A DNA stretch of 64,000 nucleotides from Gammaproteobacteria bacterium (lineage in GTDB: Bacteria > Pseudomonadota > Gammaproteobacteria > SZUA-229): NCBI GenBank assembly GCA_029882215.1, contig JAOULC010000017.1, positions 1 through 64,000 of the forward strand, given 5' to 3'. Below the pieces are notes generated by a model, which saw nothing but the letters and a program-made list of their open reading frames with translations, ran no database searches and was not told the origin of the DNA. This document shows, piece by piece, positions 7,054 to 31,976 of this stretch (within the stretch, counting starts at the first letter, position 1; the number at the start of each line of letters is the position of its first letter). Position numbers and translations under genes: made by a program.

Positions 7054-7354
7054 ATTATCACAAAAAAAACGTATCTTTAATTTTTATTATTTTTCTGCTA
7101 TTTGAGTCTTTTTTTGCTGTTTTTTAATAAAATAAAGCATAAAAACCGCTCTAAACAGTTCCCAGCAAAATTTCAGTATGTTACGATCTTTGCCAGTTTT
7201 AGTTTGGTTAAACAATAATCAAACTGAATGCTTGGAAAGTTTTTTATTGCACGTTCTCTGGTTTTACAGAAGCTCCATCTGGTAACTCCTGACTTTACCC
7301 TGAATAACATGCAATTGATTACGAATGAATAATAAACAATTGAGGTAAGGCAGC

Positions 7355-7558
7355 ATGGCTACAGGTACTGTGAAATGGTTTAATGAAAGTAAAGGTTTTG
7401 GTTTCATCGTTGCAGATGATGGCAGTCAGGACGTTTTCGTTCATTTCTCTGTGATTGAAGGTGGCGGCTTTAAAACCCTGGCTGAAGGCCAGAAAGTAGA
7501 GTACGACGTAGAGAAAGGTCCAAAAGGCCCGCAGGCAACTAAAGTAACGGCAATCTAA
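7355..7558 (+). CDS. Cold shock protein, CspA family
   Basis: [32 protein letters not shown]. Confidence 0.95.
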
Positions 7559-7587
7559 ACACCCCGCTTTAATGTTAGCCCGAAGAA

Positions 7588-7613
7588 AAACCCCGCTAGT
7601 CGGGGTTTTTTTA
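7588..7613 (+). terminator. Intrinsic terminator of cold shock gene
   Basis: ACCCCG-ctagt-CGGGGTTTTTTT. Confidence 0.9.
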
Positions 7614-11118: not shown

Positions 11119-12909
11119 ATGAAAAATAACAAACACCGATATCAGCGTCTGGGCTATGCCATCGTATTAACCGCATTAGTCACAGGCTGCGCGCAGCAGC
11201 ATATTCCTGAAGCCAAAATAACGACCGATAAATCGCAATCCGTTACTGACCAGTTCGTTATAACAGAGCAGCTTTCAGCTCCCGCCACGGCTAATAAAAC
11301 GCGGCCGCAGCCAGTAGAAGAACAAGCGAGAGAACTTGCGAGAACAGCTCAACATGCAAAATCAGAACAGCAATACCGGCAAAAAGAAAAGCGCAGCTTA
11401 CGGCCTATGCACGGTAGCATCACACCATTTATACAGTCTTCCATTCAGTATAATGATTATGCATCTGGCAATATTCAGGACAAGGAAAAATATGCCAAGT
11501 ATGTAAAAAACTTAGTCAAGCAAACCGCTATTGAACCGCTATCCACTTTCTCAATTGATGTCGACACGGGCAGCTATAGCAACGTCAGACGGCTGATTAA
11601 CAGCGGCACTCTGCCACTCAAAGATGCCGTCAGAGTCGAAGAAATGCTTAATTATTTCAGTTACGATTATAAAAACACACCCGAGAATAATGCGCCGTTT
11701 ATTAGTCGCACAGAAACAGCACCCAGTCCCTGGTCAAAGCACCATCACCTATTACAAATAGGTATTAAAGCGATCGATATAGAAGCCCGTCAACTGCCCG
11801 CGGCAAACCTTGTTTTTTTAATTGATGTGTCTGGCTCGATGGCATCTGAAAATAAATTAGGCCTGTTAAAAAAATCACTGGGCTTATTAGTCTCAAAAAT
11901 GCGCAAACAGGATACGATTTCACTGGTGGTATATGCCGGTGCCAGTGGTATTGTACTTGAGCCCACTTCGGGTGATCAAAAATCACTTATCAATAACGCC
12001 TTATCAAGGCTGCGCGCCGGTGGCTCGACAAACGGAGCATCCGGTATACAACTGGCCTATCAGGTAGCGCAACAAGCCTATATAAAAAATGGTATCAACC
12101 GGATTCTGTTAGCCACCGATGGTGATTTCAATGTTGGTACCGTCAATTTTAACCAGCTAATAGAACTGGTGGAAGAAAAACGCAAAACAGGCATCAGCTT
12201 AAGTACACTGGGTTTTGGTCACGGCAATTACAATGACCAGTTAATGGAACAGCTGGCAGATTCTGCTAATGGTAAATATTCATATATCGATACGCTGAAA
12301 GAAGCACAGAAGGTACTGATTGATGAAATGTCATCGAGTCTGAAAACCGTTGCTAAAGATGTAAAAATTCAGATTGAATTTAATCCCTCGGTTGTGGCCG
12401 AATATCGTCTCATTGGTTATGAAAATAGAAGGCTCAATGAAGAAGACTTTAATAACGACAACGTGGATGCCGGTGAAATTGGTGCAGGTCATACCGTTAC
12501 CGCATTTTATGAAATTGTATTAAGCAGCAGCCAGTATCGTCAGATTGATCCGTTAAGATATCAGCAGGAATCAGCGGACAATGTAACAAATAGCAATGAA
12601 CTGGCTTTTGTAAAAATAAGGTACAAAGAACCACAACACGATGTCAGTAAACTGATAACACAAGCGGTGCCAGTATCCGCTATTCGCAGAACGATTGAGC
12701 AGACTAGCGATGACTTTCGTTTTGCCAGCAGTGTTATCGGCTTTGCTGAATTACTAAAAGACGAACAGCAGCACAAAGAGATTGATTTTGATCAGGTCAT
12801 AAAACTTTCCACTGCCGCCAGAGGTAAAGATTTATTCGGCTATCGCAGCGAATTCACGCAACTGGTAAAATTAGCACAATCACTCAAATTCACAGCACTG
12901 CAGCAATAG
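11119..12909 (+). CDS. von Willebrand factor type A domain lipoprotein (YfbK-like)
   Basis: Lipobox TALVTGC; MIDAS motif DVSGSMASENK; TFSIDVDTGSYSNVRR typical of this family. Confidence 0.9.
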   Translation: MKNNKHRYQRLGYAIVLTALVTGCAQQHIPEAKITTDKSQSVTDQFVITEQLSAPATANKTRPQPVEEQARELARTAQHAKSEQQYRQKEKRSLRPMHGSITPFIQSSIQYNDYASGNIQDKEKYAKYVKNLVKQTAIEPLSTFSIDVDTGSYSNVRRLINSGTLPLKDAVRVEEMLNYFSYDYKNTPENNAPFISRTETAPSPWSKHHHLLQIGIKAIDIEARQLPAANLVFLIDVSGSMASENKLGLLKKSLGLLVSKMRKQDTISLVVYAGASGIVLEPTSGDQKSLINNALSRLRAGGSTNGASGIQLAYQVAQQAYIKNGINRILLATDGDFNVGTVNFNQLIELVEEKRKTGISLSTLGFGHGNYNDQLMEQLADSANGKYSYIDTLKEAQKVLIDEMSSSLKTVAKDVKIQIEFNPSVVAEYRLIGYENRRLNEEDFNNDNVDAGEIGAGHTVTAFYEIVLSSSQYRQIDPLRYQQESADNVTNSNELAFVKIRYKEPQHDVSKLITQAVPVSAIRRTIEQTSDDFRFASSVIGFAELLKDEQQHKEIDFDQVIKLSTAARGKDLFGYRSEFTQLVKLAQSLKFTALQQ

Positions 12910-12969
12910 TGTTATGATGTCTGAACCTGAACCATCCACCTTTAAGTTCAGGTTCAGACAATTAATGAT

Positions 12970-13566
12970 ATGAAAGCAAAAGATACGCCTATTAAATCAC
13001 AACAAGCCGACGATCAGAACAGCGATGAAGAACTACTGGCACTATACTGCCATGGTAACAATCGCGCGTTCGATATGCTGTATAACAGGCACCGTGACAG
13101 TCTTTACCGTTTTCTGCTGAGGCAAAATAATAATATGACTGCGCAGGCTGAAGAAATTTTTCAGGAGGTATGGTTCAGTATTATTAATCATAAAAAGCAG
13201 TTCAGAAATGATTCAAAATTTTCCACCTGGCTATATCAGATTGCGAGAAATAAATTAACTGATAGCAGCAGAAAATCATTAAGCCGAAAAGAAAAGCTGC
13301 ACGATGATATTGCATCGCAGTCAGTGGAATCAGCCACTCCCGAACCGGATCACAAGACACAGCTGCAAATTTGCATTGAGCTGTTGCAGGGCTTTGTATT
13401 ACAACTTCCGCAGGAACAAAAAGAAGCCTTTGTACTGAAACATGATACCGATAAGAGTATCGATGATCTGGCCCTGATAACCAACACCACTCACGAAACC
13501 TTTAAAAGCCGTTTACGTTACGCCATGCAAAAACTACGCGACTGGCTACCCGGTGAATGTCTATGA
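12970..13566 (+). CDS. ECF-type RNA polymerase sigma factor
   Basis: ELLALYCHGNNRAFDMLYNRHRDSLYRFLLR, AEEIFQEVWFSI, KFSTWLYQIARNKLTDSSRK, LPQEQKEAFVLKHD. Confidence 0.9.
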   Translation: MKAKDTPIKSQQADDQNSDEELLALYCHGNNRAFDMLYNRHRDSLYRFLLRQNNNMTAQAEEIFQEVWFSIINHKKQFRNDSKFSTWLYQIARNKLTDSSRKSLSRKEKLHDDIASQSVESATPEPDHKTQLQICIELLQGFVLQLPQEQKEAFVLKHDTDKSIDDLALITNTTHETFKSRLRYAMQKLRDWLPGECL

Positions 13567-17565: not shown

Positions 17566-17640
17566 TCCCGCATCTGCTTGGATTAAGCAAAAACGGGCTG
17601 GTCACTAGCTAAAAAGCCGTGACCAGATAGCGATTTAAAA

Positions 17641-17847
17641 TTAAAGCGCTACGATGTTTTCTGCTTGAGGACCTTTAGCGCCCTGAGTAACAGTGAACTC
17701 AACTTTTTGGCCTTCAGCAAGAGTCTTGAAACCACCGCCAGAGATTGCGCTGAAATGTGCAAAAACGTCAGGGCCATTTTCTTGCTCAATAAAACCAAAA
17801 CCTTTAGCTTCGTTGAACCATTTTACAGTACCAGTTACAGTAGACAT
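17641..17847 (-). CDS. Cold shock protein, CspA family
   Basis: [31 protein letters not shown]. Confidence 0.95.
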
Positions 17848-18305
17848 ATTTTTTTCCTAATTTAATCAATAGTAAGTTTTTTAAGCCATAAATATCTGTG
17901 ATAGTTAAGGCTTGGTTTTGCTGGAAGTATTATTTTACTTATGAAGAACAGGACGAGGTACTAAGATGGAACATCGAAATGTGGTGTGCATAAATATAAG
18001 TCGAACTTTCAAGCTGAAGAGATTATACAACAACGCAATCCACAGTAACAACGATTTATTCCTTTTAAATCAATAAAAATGATCTATTTTTGGATTATTC
18101 TGGACATTTTAGTCAATTTTATGACTTTTAATATTTTTTTTAAACATATAGCGATTCAAAACCGGTAAATTTACCGGTCAACATCCCCTGCAAGTCATAT
18201 GGATAAATCGTATTATCAGGTATCGCTTACTACAAACAAGCGGTACTGCACGTTTAATAATTCATTTATACTGCCCGTATTCAGCGTTACTCTACTGGAC
18301 TTACA

Positions 18306-25389: not shown

Positions 25390-26796
25390 TTAAAGCTTGT
25401 CAGAGGCCTTTAAACCAATCTTGAATTTCTCAAGATAAGCGTTTGGTTGTGAACCGTCATAAACAATGTTATCGATAAAATGCTTCTGTGGTTTTTTAAA
25501 GCCTGTTTCTTTTGCAAAATCAGGGAAGTCCTTTTTCAGTACCTTACCTTCAGCAATCAGCTCTTTAGCAGCCAGCGCATAAATATCCGGGCGATAAACT
25601 TTTTTTGCTGTATCTTTAAACCAGCTGTCTGATTTCTTGTCTGCAATCTGCCCCCAGCGACGCATCTGCGTTAAATACCAGATCGCATCTGAGTAGTACG
25701 GATAGGTTGCGTTATGACGATAGAACACGTTGAAGTCAGGTACTGAGCGTTTATCGCCTTTTTCATATTCAAACGTTCCTGTCATTGAGTTGGCAATCAC
25801 ATCGTAATCTGCACCCACGTACTGAGACTTGGCTAATATCTTCACCGCTTCCGGGCGATTTTTATTGTTATCAGCATCCAGCCATTCTGCTGCACGAATC
25901 AATGCCTTAACCACTTTGATATGTGTGTTCGGATTTTTCTTTGCCCAGTCAGCGCTCACACCAAATACTTTTTCAGGGTTATCTTTCCAGATTTCATAAT
26001 CGGTTACTACAGGAACACCAATGCCTTTAAAGACAGCCTGCTGATTCCACGGCTCACCAACACAGTATCCATCAATTGTTCCGGCTTCCATGGTCGATGG
26101 CATTTGTGGTGGCGGCGTTACCGATAAAAATGTATCTGCTTTAATCTTGCCGCTGGTGTCACCTTTATGCGGTGCGTAAAAACCCGGGTGAATTCCGCCA
26201 GCTGCTAACCAGTAGCGTAACTCGTAGTTATGCGTCGACACCGGGAAAACCATACCCATGTTAAAAGGCTTGCCTGCATCTTTGTATTGCTCAATCACCG
26301 GTTTTAGTGAGTCGGCTTTAATCGGGTGAACCGGTTTGCCGTTTTCATGCGGGATGTGTTTTTTCATTTCAGCCCAGACTTTATTTGAAACCGTAATCGC
26401 ATTACCGTTCAAATCCATACTGAAAGCGGTTATGATATCCGCCTGTGTTCCGAATCCAATTGTTGCGCCTAAAGGCTGTCCTGCCAACATATGTGCACCA
26501 TCTAGCTCACCGTCGATAACTCTATCCAGCAATACTTTCCAGTTAGCCTGCGGTTCCAGAGTGACGTATAAACCTTCATCCTCAAAAAAGCCTTTTTCAT
26601 AAGCTACAGCTAAAGGTGCCATATCGGTTAATTTAATAAATCCAAATTTTAATTCTTCTTTTTCTGCTTCACCTGTTACTGCCAGTGCGTTTGTTGATAC
26701 TGTGCCGAGCCCCAATGACATTGCCGTTGCTAATAAGGTGTTCCTTAGAACACGTTTTCCCAGGTTAAGATTAAATCGGAGTTTATAAGTTTTCAT
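25390..26796 (-). CDS. nrtA: Nitrate-type ABC transporter substrate-binding protein (NrtA/CmpA family)
   Basis: [62 protein letters not shown] with signal peptide. Confidence 0.9.
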
Positions 26797-27141: not shown

Positions 27142-27756
27142 CTAACAATTACTTTGTAACGAGCCAAATATTTCTGAAAGCTCGATGACATTGACAGCGA
27201 CATCAATCAGTTTTTTATTCTGTTCCATTGCCACTTTGCGAATCGATTGATAGGCCTGGTCTTCGCTGATGTTTCGCTGCTGCATTAAAATGCCTTTAGC
27301 GCGCTCTATGACTTTACGTTCATTCAGGCATTTTTTCGTTTCTCTCAGTTCGTGGCGTAGTGACAAAGCATCCAAAAAGCGTTCTATCGATAATTCAATA
27401 ATCGGTCTGATTTTTCTGCTGCTAATGCCATCGATGATAAAAGCCCCTACACCGGCTTTCACAGCTCTTTTTATTATTTTTGTTTCGGCGACTTCTGTGA
27501 AAAATACGACGGGTTTAGGGCATTCCTCGTTCACTTTAGTCAGGCGGTCAAAGATCAGATCATCTGGTGACCCCATAGCTATCACCAGCACATCGGGACG
27601 ATACTGCTGAATACTAGAAATAAGATCATCATATGAGACACTACAGATGACTTCAAAACCCTCATTATATAAAGATTCGACCAGCATCCCGTTGCTTACT
27701 GTGAGCTTTTCAATTAGCATAACTCTTAACTTATCCGGCACTATTTTGATCACCAC
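27142..27756 (-). CDS. nasT: ANTAR-domain response regulator NasT
   Basis: Receiver-like N-terminus and ANTAR C-terminus (ECLNERKVIERAKGILMQQRNISEDQAYQSIRKVAMEQNKKLIDVA). Confidence 0.9.
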   Translation of the reverse strand: MVIKIVPDKLRVMLIEKLTVSNGMLVESLYNEGFEVICSVSYDDLISSIQQYRPDVLVIAMGSPDDLIFDRLTKVNEECPKPVVFFTEVAETKIIKRAVKAGVGAFIIDGISSRKIRPIIELSIERFLDALSLRHELRETKKCLNERKVIERAKGILMQQRNISEDQAYQSIRKVAMEQNKKLIDVAVNVIELSEIFGSLQSNC

Positions 27757-28174: not shown

Positions 28175-28449
28175 ACAGTTGGATAAAGGCAGCTCTGCTC
28201 GAAAGTCAGATACGCAAAACTACCAGTCTAAAAGCCATATTGGCTCATGATCGTGGGGTTACCGGACAGTCAGTATTACTGTAGTCAGATTCATGGCTCC
28301 AGTCCTTTTGTCTTCAGTGTTAGTTATAACACCTGCCTTCCTCCTATTAATTGCTTATAGAAGCGTGTACCACCTCGCCCGGCAACCCTTCGATGCCATC
28401 GATAAGCTACTTGAAATTTGGTTTACCTAGCATTAAGGCAGAAATTGTA

Positions 28450-29626: not shown

Positions 29627-30967
29627 GTGAATACTATTATGAAAAGTATTGATACATCGTTATCGACTGTTCTGCGACTTAAAAACTTTGGCGCCTCTTT
29701 CGGTGACAAAATTATTTTAAGCGATGTTAATTTAAATATTTTAGAGCGTGGTGTCTTTGTCCTTTTAGGACCGAGCGGCACCGGAAAATCCACTTTACTG
29801 CGCTCAATAGCCGGATTAAATGAAACAAACCCGTCGTTTCGTACCTGGGGTAATGCCTATTACCTGGGTAAGGAGCTCGGCGATGAAAACCGTCCATTAC
29901 TTGTATCACAAAGTGCAAGACTGATGATGGCCAGTATATTTGATAACGTCGTACACCATCTTTCAGAAAGAGATAATCTGACATTAAAACAACAACGGGA
30001 TCTGGCAGTAAGACTGCTTGAACAGGCCGGACTTAGTGAACTTAATGATGCATTAGATGATAGTGTGATGAGTCTAACACTTGCCCAGCAAAGACATCTG
30101 GCTATATTGAGACTGACAGCAGCCAGTCCGAAGTTATTGTGTCTTGACGAGCCAACAACGGGTATTTCAGACACTGAGGCAGCGGCATTGTTGACATATA
30201 TAAAAAATGAAAGTCAGAGACGGGCAATATTAATTGTACTACACAACCTCGAACAGGCTAAATCATTAAGTGGCCATACTGCATTACTCGCAGGCGGGTA
30301 TATACAGGAAGTTCAGGACACAGATAATTTTATTAATTCACCAAAATCGGAACACGCTAAACAATGGGTTAAGCTAGGTTCATGTAATGTACCGTCCCCC
30401 GATGCACTGGCTGAAAACCTGGCTGATGATGTAACACCGCCGCCACCGTTACCGACGATTGTTCAATATGCACCCAGTGAAAGCTTTGGGCCAAGAGGTT
30501 TTTTATGGCTCAAGCGTGGACTTCTTGCTGGCACACCGCTTCCCGGTGTTTTTCACGATATTGAATATGATATGCAGATGCTTAAGAAAGTTGGTGTTAC
30601 CACACTGATTACTTTAATGACAAAGCCTGTCAATCAGACTGTACTGGATAAATTTTCTGTTAAAAGTATCTGGCACTCCATTAAAGATATGGGAGCGCCT
30701 GATAACGAACAGGCCGTTACCATATGCAGGGAAATTGACCTGGCTATTAACAATAAAGAAGTCGTTGCCGTGCATTGCCGCGCAGGCATGGGGCGAACAG
30801 GAACAATCCTGGCCGCCTACTTAATATGGGAAGGAAGCCCTGCGTTACTGGCACTGGATACTGTCAGAAATATTGAACCCCGATGGGTACAGTCAGAAGA
30901 ACAGGTAAACTTTTTAGAATCTTTTGCCAAGTATTTAGCAAAGGATAAACACAAATTACAAAAATAA
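29627..30967 (+). CDS. Fusion: ABC ATPase domain plus dual-specificity/tyrosine phosphatase domain
   Basis: Walker A GPSGTGKST, Walker B LLCLDEPT, H-loop VLHN; C-terminal PTP signature VHCRAGMGRTG. Confidence 0.85.
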   Translation: MNTIMKSIDTSLSTVLRLKNFGASFGDKIILSDVNLNILERGVFVLLGPSGTGKSTLLRSIAGLNETNPSFRTWGNAYYLGKELGDENRPLLVSQSARLMMASIFDNVVHHLSERDNLTLKQQRDLAVRLLEQAGLSELNDALDDSVMSLTLAQQRHLAILRLTAASPKLLCLDEPTTGISDTEAAALLTYIKNESQRRAILIVLHNLEQAKSLSGHTALLAGGYIQEVQDTDNFINSPKSEHAKQWVKLGSCNVPSPDALAENLADDVTPPPPLPTIVQYAPSESFGPRGFLWLKRGLLAGTPLPGVFHDIEYDMQMLKKVGVTTLITLMTKPVNQTVLDKFSVKSIWHSIKDMGAPDNEQAVTICREIDLAINNKEVVAVHCRAGMGRTGTILAAYLIWEGSPALLALDTVRNIEPRWVQSEEQVNFLESFAKYLAKDKHKLQK

Positions 30968-31005
30968 ATTATCATGCCATTTACCGAATTGGCGGATAAT
31001 TTTTG
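30967..31005 (+). terminator. Stem-loop with T-rich 3' flank between phosphatase and roadblock genes
   Basis: AATTATC-at-GCCA-tttaccgaat-TGGC-g-GATAATTTTT. Confidence 0.55.
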
Positions 31006-31052
31006 TAGTAACAAGCAAGACTAAATAACCCCCAACAGAATGAGAGAACAAA

Positions 31053-31460
31053 ATGTCTAATTCATTAGAAAATCAGTTACAACAAGCAATTACTTCAGTT
31101 CCAGAATGCGTGGCATCTGGTTATGTAGATTTAAGCACCGGCATGCTGCTGGGTGTTAAAACAGTAGATTCACACCCTGCTGAAGTACTGGAATTACTGG
31201 CAGCAGCAACTGCTGATATGTTTCAGGGTTCAAACGTTGTTGCTATCGAAAACATGTTCAAGAAAGCACGTGGCGTTGAAGACGGCAAGCATTACTTTAA
31301 TGAAATGATTGTTAACAGTGACAATCTAATTCACGTATTCATCCGTGGAAAAGTTAACGATGAGCACGTTGTTGCTTTTGTCTGCAGAAAGTCAGCTAAC
31401 TTAGGTATGGCTCTGACTAAAGCACGATCTGCACTGCCAGCTATAGAAGCAGCATTGTAA
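31053..31460 (+). CDS. Roadblock/LC7-like small protein
   Basis: 135 aa; VASGYVDLSTGMLLGVK...VVAFVCRKSANLGMALTKARSALPAI resembles a roadblock fold. Confidence 0.65.
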   Translation: MSNSLENQLQQAITSVPECVASGYVDLSTGMLLGVKTVDSHPAEVLELLAAATADMFQGSNVVAIENMFKKARGVEDGKHYFNEMIVNSDNLIHVFIRGKVNDEHVVAFVCRKSANLGMALTKARSALPAIEAAL

Positions 31461-31469
31461 AATAGTTTT

Positions 31470-31556
31470 ATGCAAGTCTTTTATGATACTCATTTAAGAC
31501 TTGCATATTGATATTATGAAATTCCTCATGCGTAGATATTTCATAATATCAATATG
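31470..31556 (+). promoter_or_regulatory. Two adjacent, mutually overlapping hairpins, the second enclosing a start codon
   Basis: TATGCAAGTCTT/AAGACTTGCATA (31469-31480/31496-31507) and CATATTGATATTATGAAAT/ATTTCATAATATCAATATG (31504-31522/31538-31556). Confidence 0.8.
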
Positions 31557-31976
31557 GCTACAACACTGGAGACTGGTTTGGAATATTTAGACAACAATGA
31601 TGTGAAAAGTAAAGCTCTTCGTCCTATTTTACGTGCATTTAACGGCTCATCAAATGAAATAGAAGCCTCTGCTGTGATTACCAGTGATGGTTTTACACTT
31701 GCATGGGTTCTGGATGCTAATGTTGATCAGGACCGCTATGGTGCAATGTGTGCTTCACTACTCGCCTTATCAAATCGTGCAGCACAGGAAATAGCAAGAG
31801 GAAAATTAAAACAAGTGATGATTGAGGGTGAAAACGGTTCAATGTTACTGGTACAGGCAGGTGATGACACAGTGCTGGCACTGGCAGCCAAATCAACTGC
31901 TAACATGGGCATGATATTTATAGATGCCAGAAAAACTGCACAAAAAATCAAAGAAGCATTAGATGCATTTAACTAG
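31554..31976 (+). CDS. Roadblock/LC7 domain protein
   Basis: IEASAVITSDGFTLAWVLDANVDQDRYGAMCASLLALSNRAAQEI... typical roadblock sequence. Confidence 0.85.
   Translation: MATTLETGLEYLDNNDVKSKALRPILRAFNGSSNEIEASAVITSDGFTLAWVLDANVDQDRYGAMCASLLALSNRAAQEIARGKLKQVMIEGENGSMLLVQAGDDTVLALAAKSTANMGMIFIDARKTAQKIKEALDAFN

Follow-up and report, generated by a model that had tools for sequence, protein, structure and literature searches.

The start codon of a bacterial gene for a roadblock protein, a partner of GTPases, forms the end of a long perfect inverted repeat in the DNA described here. This raises the question whether the repeat governs the initiation of translation, or whether it is a passive structure between two genes. 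The window, meaning the whole stretch of DNA that was analysed, is 64,000 nucleotides (nt) long. The features on which the following text is based are these:

28178..28266, + strand: c-di-GMP-I riboswitch aptamer, heading the gene cluster (60 bits)
31053..31460, + strand: gene D, coding for a conserved 135-aa protein, upstream of both hairpins, with no match in Pfam or NCBIfam
31470..31506, + strand: hairpin 1 (H1), a perfect stem of 11-12 bp, ATGCAAGTCTT / AAGACTTGCAT
31504..31506, + strand: CAT common to H1 and H2, identified from base-pair probabilities
31504..31556, + strand: hairpin 2 (H2), a 19-bp perfect A/T-rich stem with a 15-nt loop, ending with ATG 31554
31554..31976, + strand: gene E, coding for a Roadblock/LC7 protein of 140 aa from the ATG (Pfam Robl_LC7, E 3e-16)
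31568..31580, + strand: alternative start, GGAG and TTG 31578, just outside H2 (Shine-Dalgarno (SD) analysis)

H2 is located between the co-directional genes D and E. Its left arm, CATATTGATATTATGAAAT at 31504-31522, is matched by a perfect reverse complement at 31538-31556, so that all 19 of 19 base pairs can form. The stem consists almost only of A/T, and GCTACAAC comes directly after it. In an earlier sequence-only reading the repeat had been described with exact coordinates and arms, its last three bases had correctly been assigned to the ATG of the open reading frame 31554-31976, and the roadblock identity proposed there is confirmed by the Robl_LC7 match. Two hairpins lie side by side between D and E, and H2 is the downstream one; the other, immediately 5' of it, with arms at 31470-31480 and 31496-31506 and the CAT 31504-31506 in common with H2, had been overlooked in that reading.

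Chance does not account for H2. Among the perfect hairpins of the window it is the longest by 4 bp, the runner-up having 15 bp, and 30 windows simulated with a Markov-1 model contained no perfect hairpin of more than 12 bp. In local simulations of 100 nt, a stem of at least 19 bp was obtained in 0 of 20,000 cases. Nor does any longer perfect hairpin occur in the sampled stretches of the same genome, which amount to 829 kb or about 24% of it. Every other stem of at least 16 bp in this sample is located between convergent genes and resembles a bidirectional terminator, whereas H2 lies between co-directional genes, is built almost only of A/T and has a 15-nt loop.

Several known classes of hairpins were considered for H2 and rejected. 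A dispersed palindromic repeat (REP or MITE-like) or a mobile element was rejected, since H2 is present as a single copy: a search of the whole genome with the arms revealed no further copy at up to 2 mismatches and, at 3 mismatches, only five scattered matches to single arms. An intrinsic terminator would consist of a G+C-rich stem and a U run, but the H2 stem is almost only A/T; no U tract was found 3' of either H1 or H2, and no terminator-like site was predicted at the D/E hairpins. A promoter or operator was rejected because no promoter was predicted across the repeat. In Rfam, the site gave no match above the gathering score, and the matches below this threshold, all far below the cut-off, were mostly to eukaryotic hairpins of the microRNA type. 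H2 is real and rare in its genome, and it is ordinary in kind.

H1 starts 9 nt past the stop codon of gene D. The two hairpins share the CAT at 31504-31506, which pairs with the ATG at 31470-31472 in H1 and with the start ATG at 31554-31556 in H2, so that both pairings are mutually exclusive. At 37 °C, energies of -17.4 kcal/mol for H1 and -20.8 kcal/mol for H2 were predicted, and the predicted pairing probability of the CAT, by base, is 0.51-0.95 with H1 and 0.05-0.46 with the start AUG. The presence of a neighbouring hairpin that has three bases in common with H2 alters how the start codon of gene E should be read.

A structure at this position is also found in other genomes. The 60 nt past the stop codon of gene D are in the top 5.5% of predicted stability within this genome, and they are strongly structured in 8 of the 13 loci in which the next gene does not overlap D (the window, G005, G017, G066, Methylotenera, G362, G177 and G217, with z from -3.5 to -9). 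The sequences of these hairpins are unrelated among the 8 loci. In G177 the gene after D is not E and the hairpin is still present, which shows that the hairpin goes with gene D. Within the 60 nt tested, no structure was identified in G249, G276, G597 and G417, nor in four Burkholderiales loci in which the roadblock gene E overlaps the stop codon of D. In G412, a G+C-rich inverted repeat, read by eye, surrounds the D stop itself. Judged from these sequences, H1 is the recurrent part of the hairpin pair, though not a universal one. Its position, its stability and the lack of a U tract suggest that H1 most likely has a protective function for the 3' end of the mRNA segment that precedes it.

H2 does not recur in this way. 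In the three closest relatives (G005, G017 and G066) a counterpart is absent and a spacer with an ATG is present instead, and in the three congeneric genomes searched the cluster of genes D and E is absent. The H2 region has a z of -7.9 in the window versus +0.6 in G005 and -1.4 in G017, and G066 has at this position a short SD-bearing spacer with GGAGG. When anchored at the H1 end, the left arm and the loop of H2 align to the G005 spacer with a score matched by 21 of 5000 shuffles, in a test that was chosen after a first unanchored local alignment (45 of 1000 shuffles as good). For the right arm, with the anchor at the ATG, no alignment to the same spacer was obtained (3265 of 5000 shuffles as good). 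The G017 spacer has no similarity to the left arm. In the G005 spacer, a weak pairing of the CAT at the H1 end with its ATG is possible, with a predicted energy of -5.1 kcal/mol. This weak pairing, together with the one-sided similarity, fits a template switch that corrected a weak quasipalindrome, and this comparison with one relative gives moderate evidence that H2 may have arisen in this way. Template switching is a known maker of perfect hairpins and has been described for RNA hairpins (PMC8794818). Like the hairpins described there, H2 consists of a perfect reverse-complement copy beside a sequence which a relative keeps one-way only; unlike them, its putative ancestral state is derived from a single relative.

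For gene E, two start codons have to be compared. The lack of an SD 5' of ATG 31554 and the presence of GGAG before the in-frame TTG 31578, both noted in the sequence-only reading, were borne out, the GGAG having a spacing of 6 nt. As to the further proposal that TTG 31578 is the true start, the chances of this codon against ATG 31554 are about even. The anti-SD energy of this GGAG is at least as good as that of 89% of the reference starts, versus only 15% for ATG 31554, and properly spaced SD matches of 4 bases occur about 5 times as often at starts as at internal codons. Against this, starts at TTG are about 8 times less frequent here than starts at ATG, and the TTG rate is an upper bound, since a simple ORF rule was used to call the reference starts. 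An SD is likewise lacking at 46 of 98 reference ATG starts. Weighing start codon and SD statistics, based on 127 reference starts and 6080 internal start-like codons, left the ATG and TTG candidates about even, at about 0.9 to 1 by our own arithmetic. In the sequence comparison, ATG 31554 occupies a position colinear with the ATGs of the orthologues, which slightly favours this codon, while freedom from the hairpin favours TTG 31578, the only one of the two left free by an intact H2.

The start AUG of gene E provides only the last 3 pairs of the H2 stem. Base-pair probabilities predict it to be about 40-50% unpaired at 37 °C, because these terminal pairs compete with H1 for the CAT. Sequestration of the start codon, as suggested in the sequence-only reading, is thus possible as a pairing, but is predicted to be partial, with the three terminal pairs contested by H1.

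The explanation favoured here, to which we give a little better than an even chance, is that H1 is protective and that H2, a palindrome specific to this lineage, arose by a template switch and acts as a mechanical barrier, with gene E being translated at a reduced rate or from the TTG. A short template switch would have copied the region just past the older H1 as its reverse complement, and the copy would have overwritten the stretch 5' of the E start, giving rise to H2. The most likely effect is a mechanical one: H2 would lengthen the barrier between D and E and hold the stretch 5' of ATG 31554 in double-stranded form. Gene E would then be translated at a lower rate from ATG 31554, or from TTG 31578 with the GGAG just outside the stem, while H1 would guard the 3' end of the mRNA segment of gene D. 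H2 was thus probably added, in this lineage, to an intercistronic stability hairpin, and this addition probably lowers or uncouples the translation of E; dampening or separating the expression of the downstream gene is more likely than a temperature or ligand switch.

In E. coli, stable hairpins without a U tract have been identified at the 3' ends of stabilised operon segments (PMC5927463), and in other operons intergenic stem-loops set the stoichiometry (PMC10311766). Both H1 and H2 are, by their predicted energies, stable hairpins between co-directional genes without a U tract. H1 is similar to the protective hairpins of the malE-malF type, which act in differential decay (PMC5927463), in being stable, in being located just past an upstream operon gene, in lacking a U tract and in recurring after the same gene. 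In contrast to this type, H2 is an added, A/T-rich and non-conserved second hairpin which extends up to the next start codon, and H1 and H2 are known from sequence and predicted folding. If the favoured explanation is true, the locus provides a natural example of a perfect RNA hairpin that arose next to a start codon in a single step, while the earlier sequence survives in a relative, and it would illustrate a way for an operon to change the proportions in which the products of two adjacent genes are made.

One of the other explanations assumes that TTG 31578 behind GGAG is the real start, and that H2 is a non-coding intercistronic hairpin without a role in initiation. The favourable SD and the location of this start region outside H2 speak for it, the rarity of TTG starts, the many ATG starts without an SD and the colinear orthologous ATGs speak against it, and as a full account of the locus it is unlikely. 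Another is a start-codon gate, in which H1 and H2 compete for the CAT 31504-31506 in a cluster already headed by a c-di-GMP riboswitch. The AUG would be exposed when H1 is fully closed and hidden when a ribosome at the D stop opens the foot of H1, so that the translation of E would be negatively coupled to that of D. The mutually exclusive pairing is exact and the two states are predicted to be near balance at 37 °C, but only 3 bp switch their partner, the other 16 bp of H2 occlude the region 5' of the AUG in both states, and the arrangement is absent in the relatives compared; we regard such a gate as distinctly improbable.

An RNA thermometer or another physical switch hiding the AUG had been the proposal of the sequence-only reading, and it is the explanation to which we assign the least probability, a very slight one. 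As in the ROSE and FourU thermometers, the stem touches the start codon, and the AUG is at the end of a stem of almost only A-U pairs. Unlike them, H2 is perfect and very stable, carries no SD in the stem, is not conserved and has no Rfam match above the gathering score. For the isolated stem, the predicted energy of -20.8 kcal/mol at 37 °C weakens only to -11.4 kcal/mol at 55 °C, and the accessibility of the AUG is predicted to change little from 4 to 37 °C. A thermosensor is disfavoured because the fold of the stem is predicted to persist at temperatures above 50 °C, and for a trans-acting RNA or a protein switch, also named in that reading, nothing was found that points to either. The perfect symmetry at the DNA level would also be consistent with an operator for a DNA-binding regulator, the remnant of a mobile element or an assembly artefact. 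The single copy in the genome and the lack of a predicted promoter across the repeat count against an operator or an element, and the half-sites of usual operators are far shorter than the H2 arms; this group of explanations is, taken together, a poor candidate.

The passive hairpins favoured above belong to a larger gene cluster on the + strand, which consists of the riboswitch, a 241-aa ORF without a known family, a small GTPase (29091), an ABC-ATPase/phosphatase fusion (29627), gene D (31053), the roadblock gene E (31554), a CxxCxxCC protein, a ferredoxin-reductase/globin fusion, a 219-aa ORF and then a second roadblock gene. The c-di-GMP-I riboswitch at 28178-28266 is the only one found in this genome, and in G017 (L033) and Methylotenera (L034) the cluster is likewise preceded by such a riboswitch. 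The gene order is the same in G017, and shorter versions were identified in Methylotenera and others. Gene D has an identity of 56-84% across distant Proteobacteria, and the ABC-phosphatase gene precedes it in every locus with enough upstream sequence. Between the latter gene and D, an imperfect hairpin followed by a T run was seen by eye at 30967-31010. This may be a terminator, in which case D and E may be transcribed as a separate unit. A search of the literature for c-di-GMP riboswitches with roadblock or MglA genes gave nothing relevant. The wider cluster, with its c-di-GMP riboswitch, small GTPase, ABC-phosphatase fusion and roadblock protein, is probably the more valuable lead.

Some other features of the window were observed. 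A 15-bp perfect hairpin with a 13-nt loop is located at 12918-12960, between a large ORF (11119-12909) and an ECF-sigma-like ORF, which starts at 12970 without an SD. It lies just past a TATGAT-like hexamer and is possibly a 5'-end mRNA hairpin; in the congener G002 (L090), the corresponding position has a hairpin of different sequence, preceded by TATAAT. The window also contains two cspA-type thermoregulator RNAs (Rfam RF01766, about 95 bits each), at 7202-7613 and 17596-17953. On the - strand, 27142-27756 codes for a probable ANTAR-type response regulator, which adjoins the gene for a nitrate-transport-like binding protein (25390-26796), both as judged from their translations.
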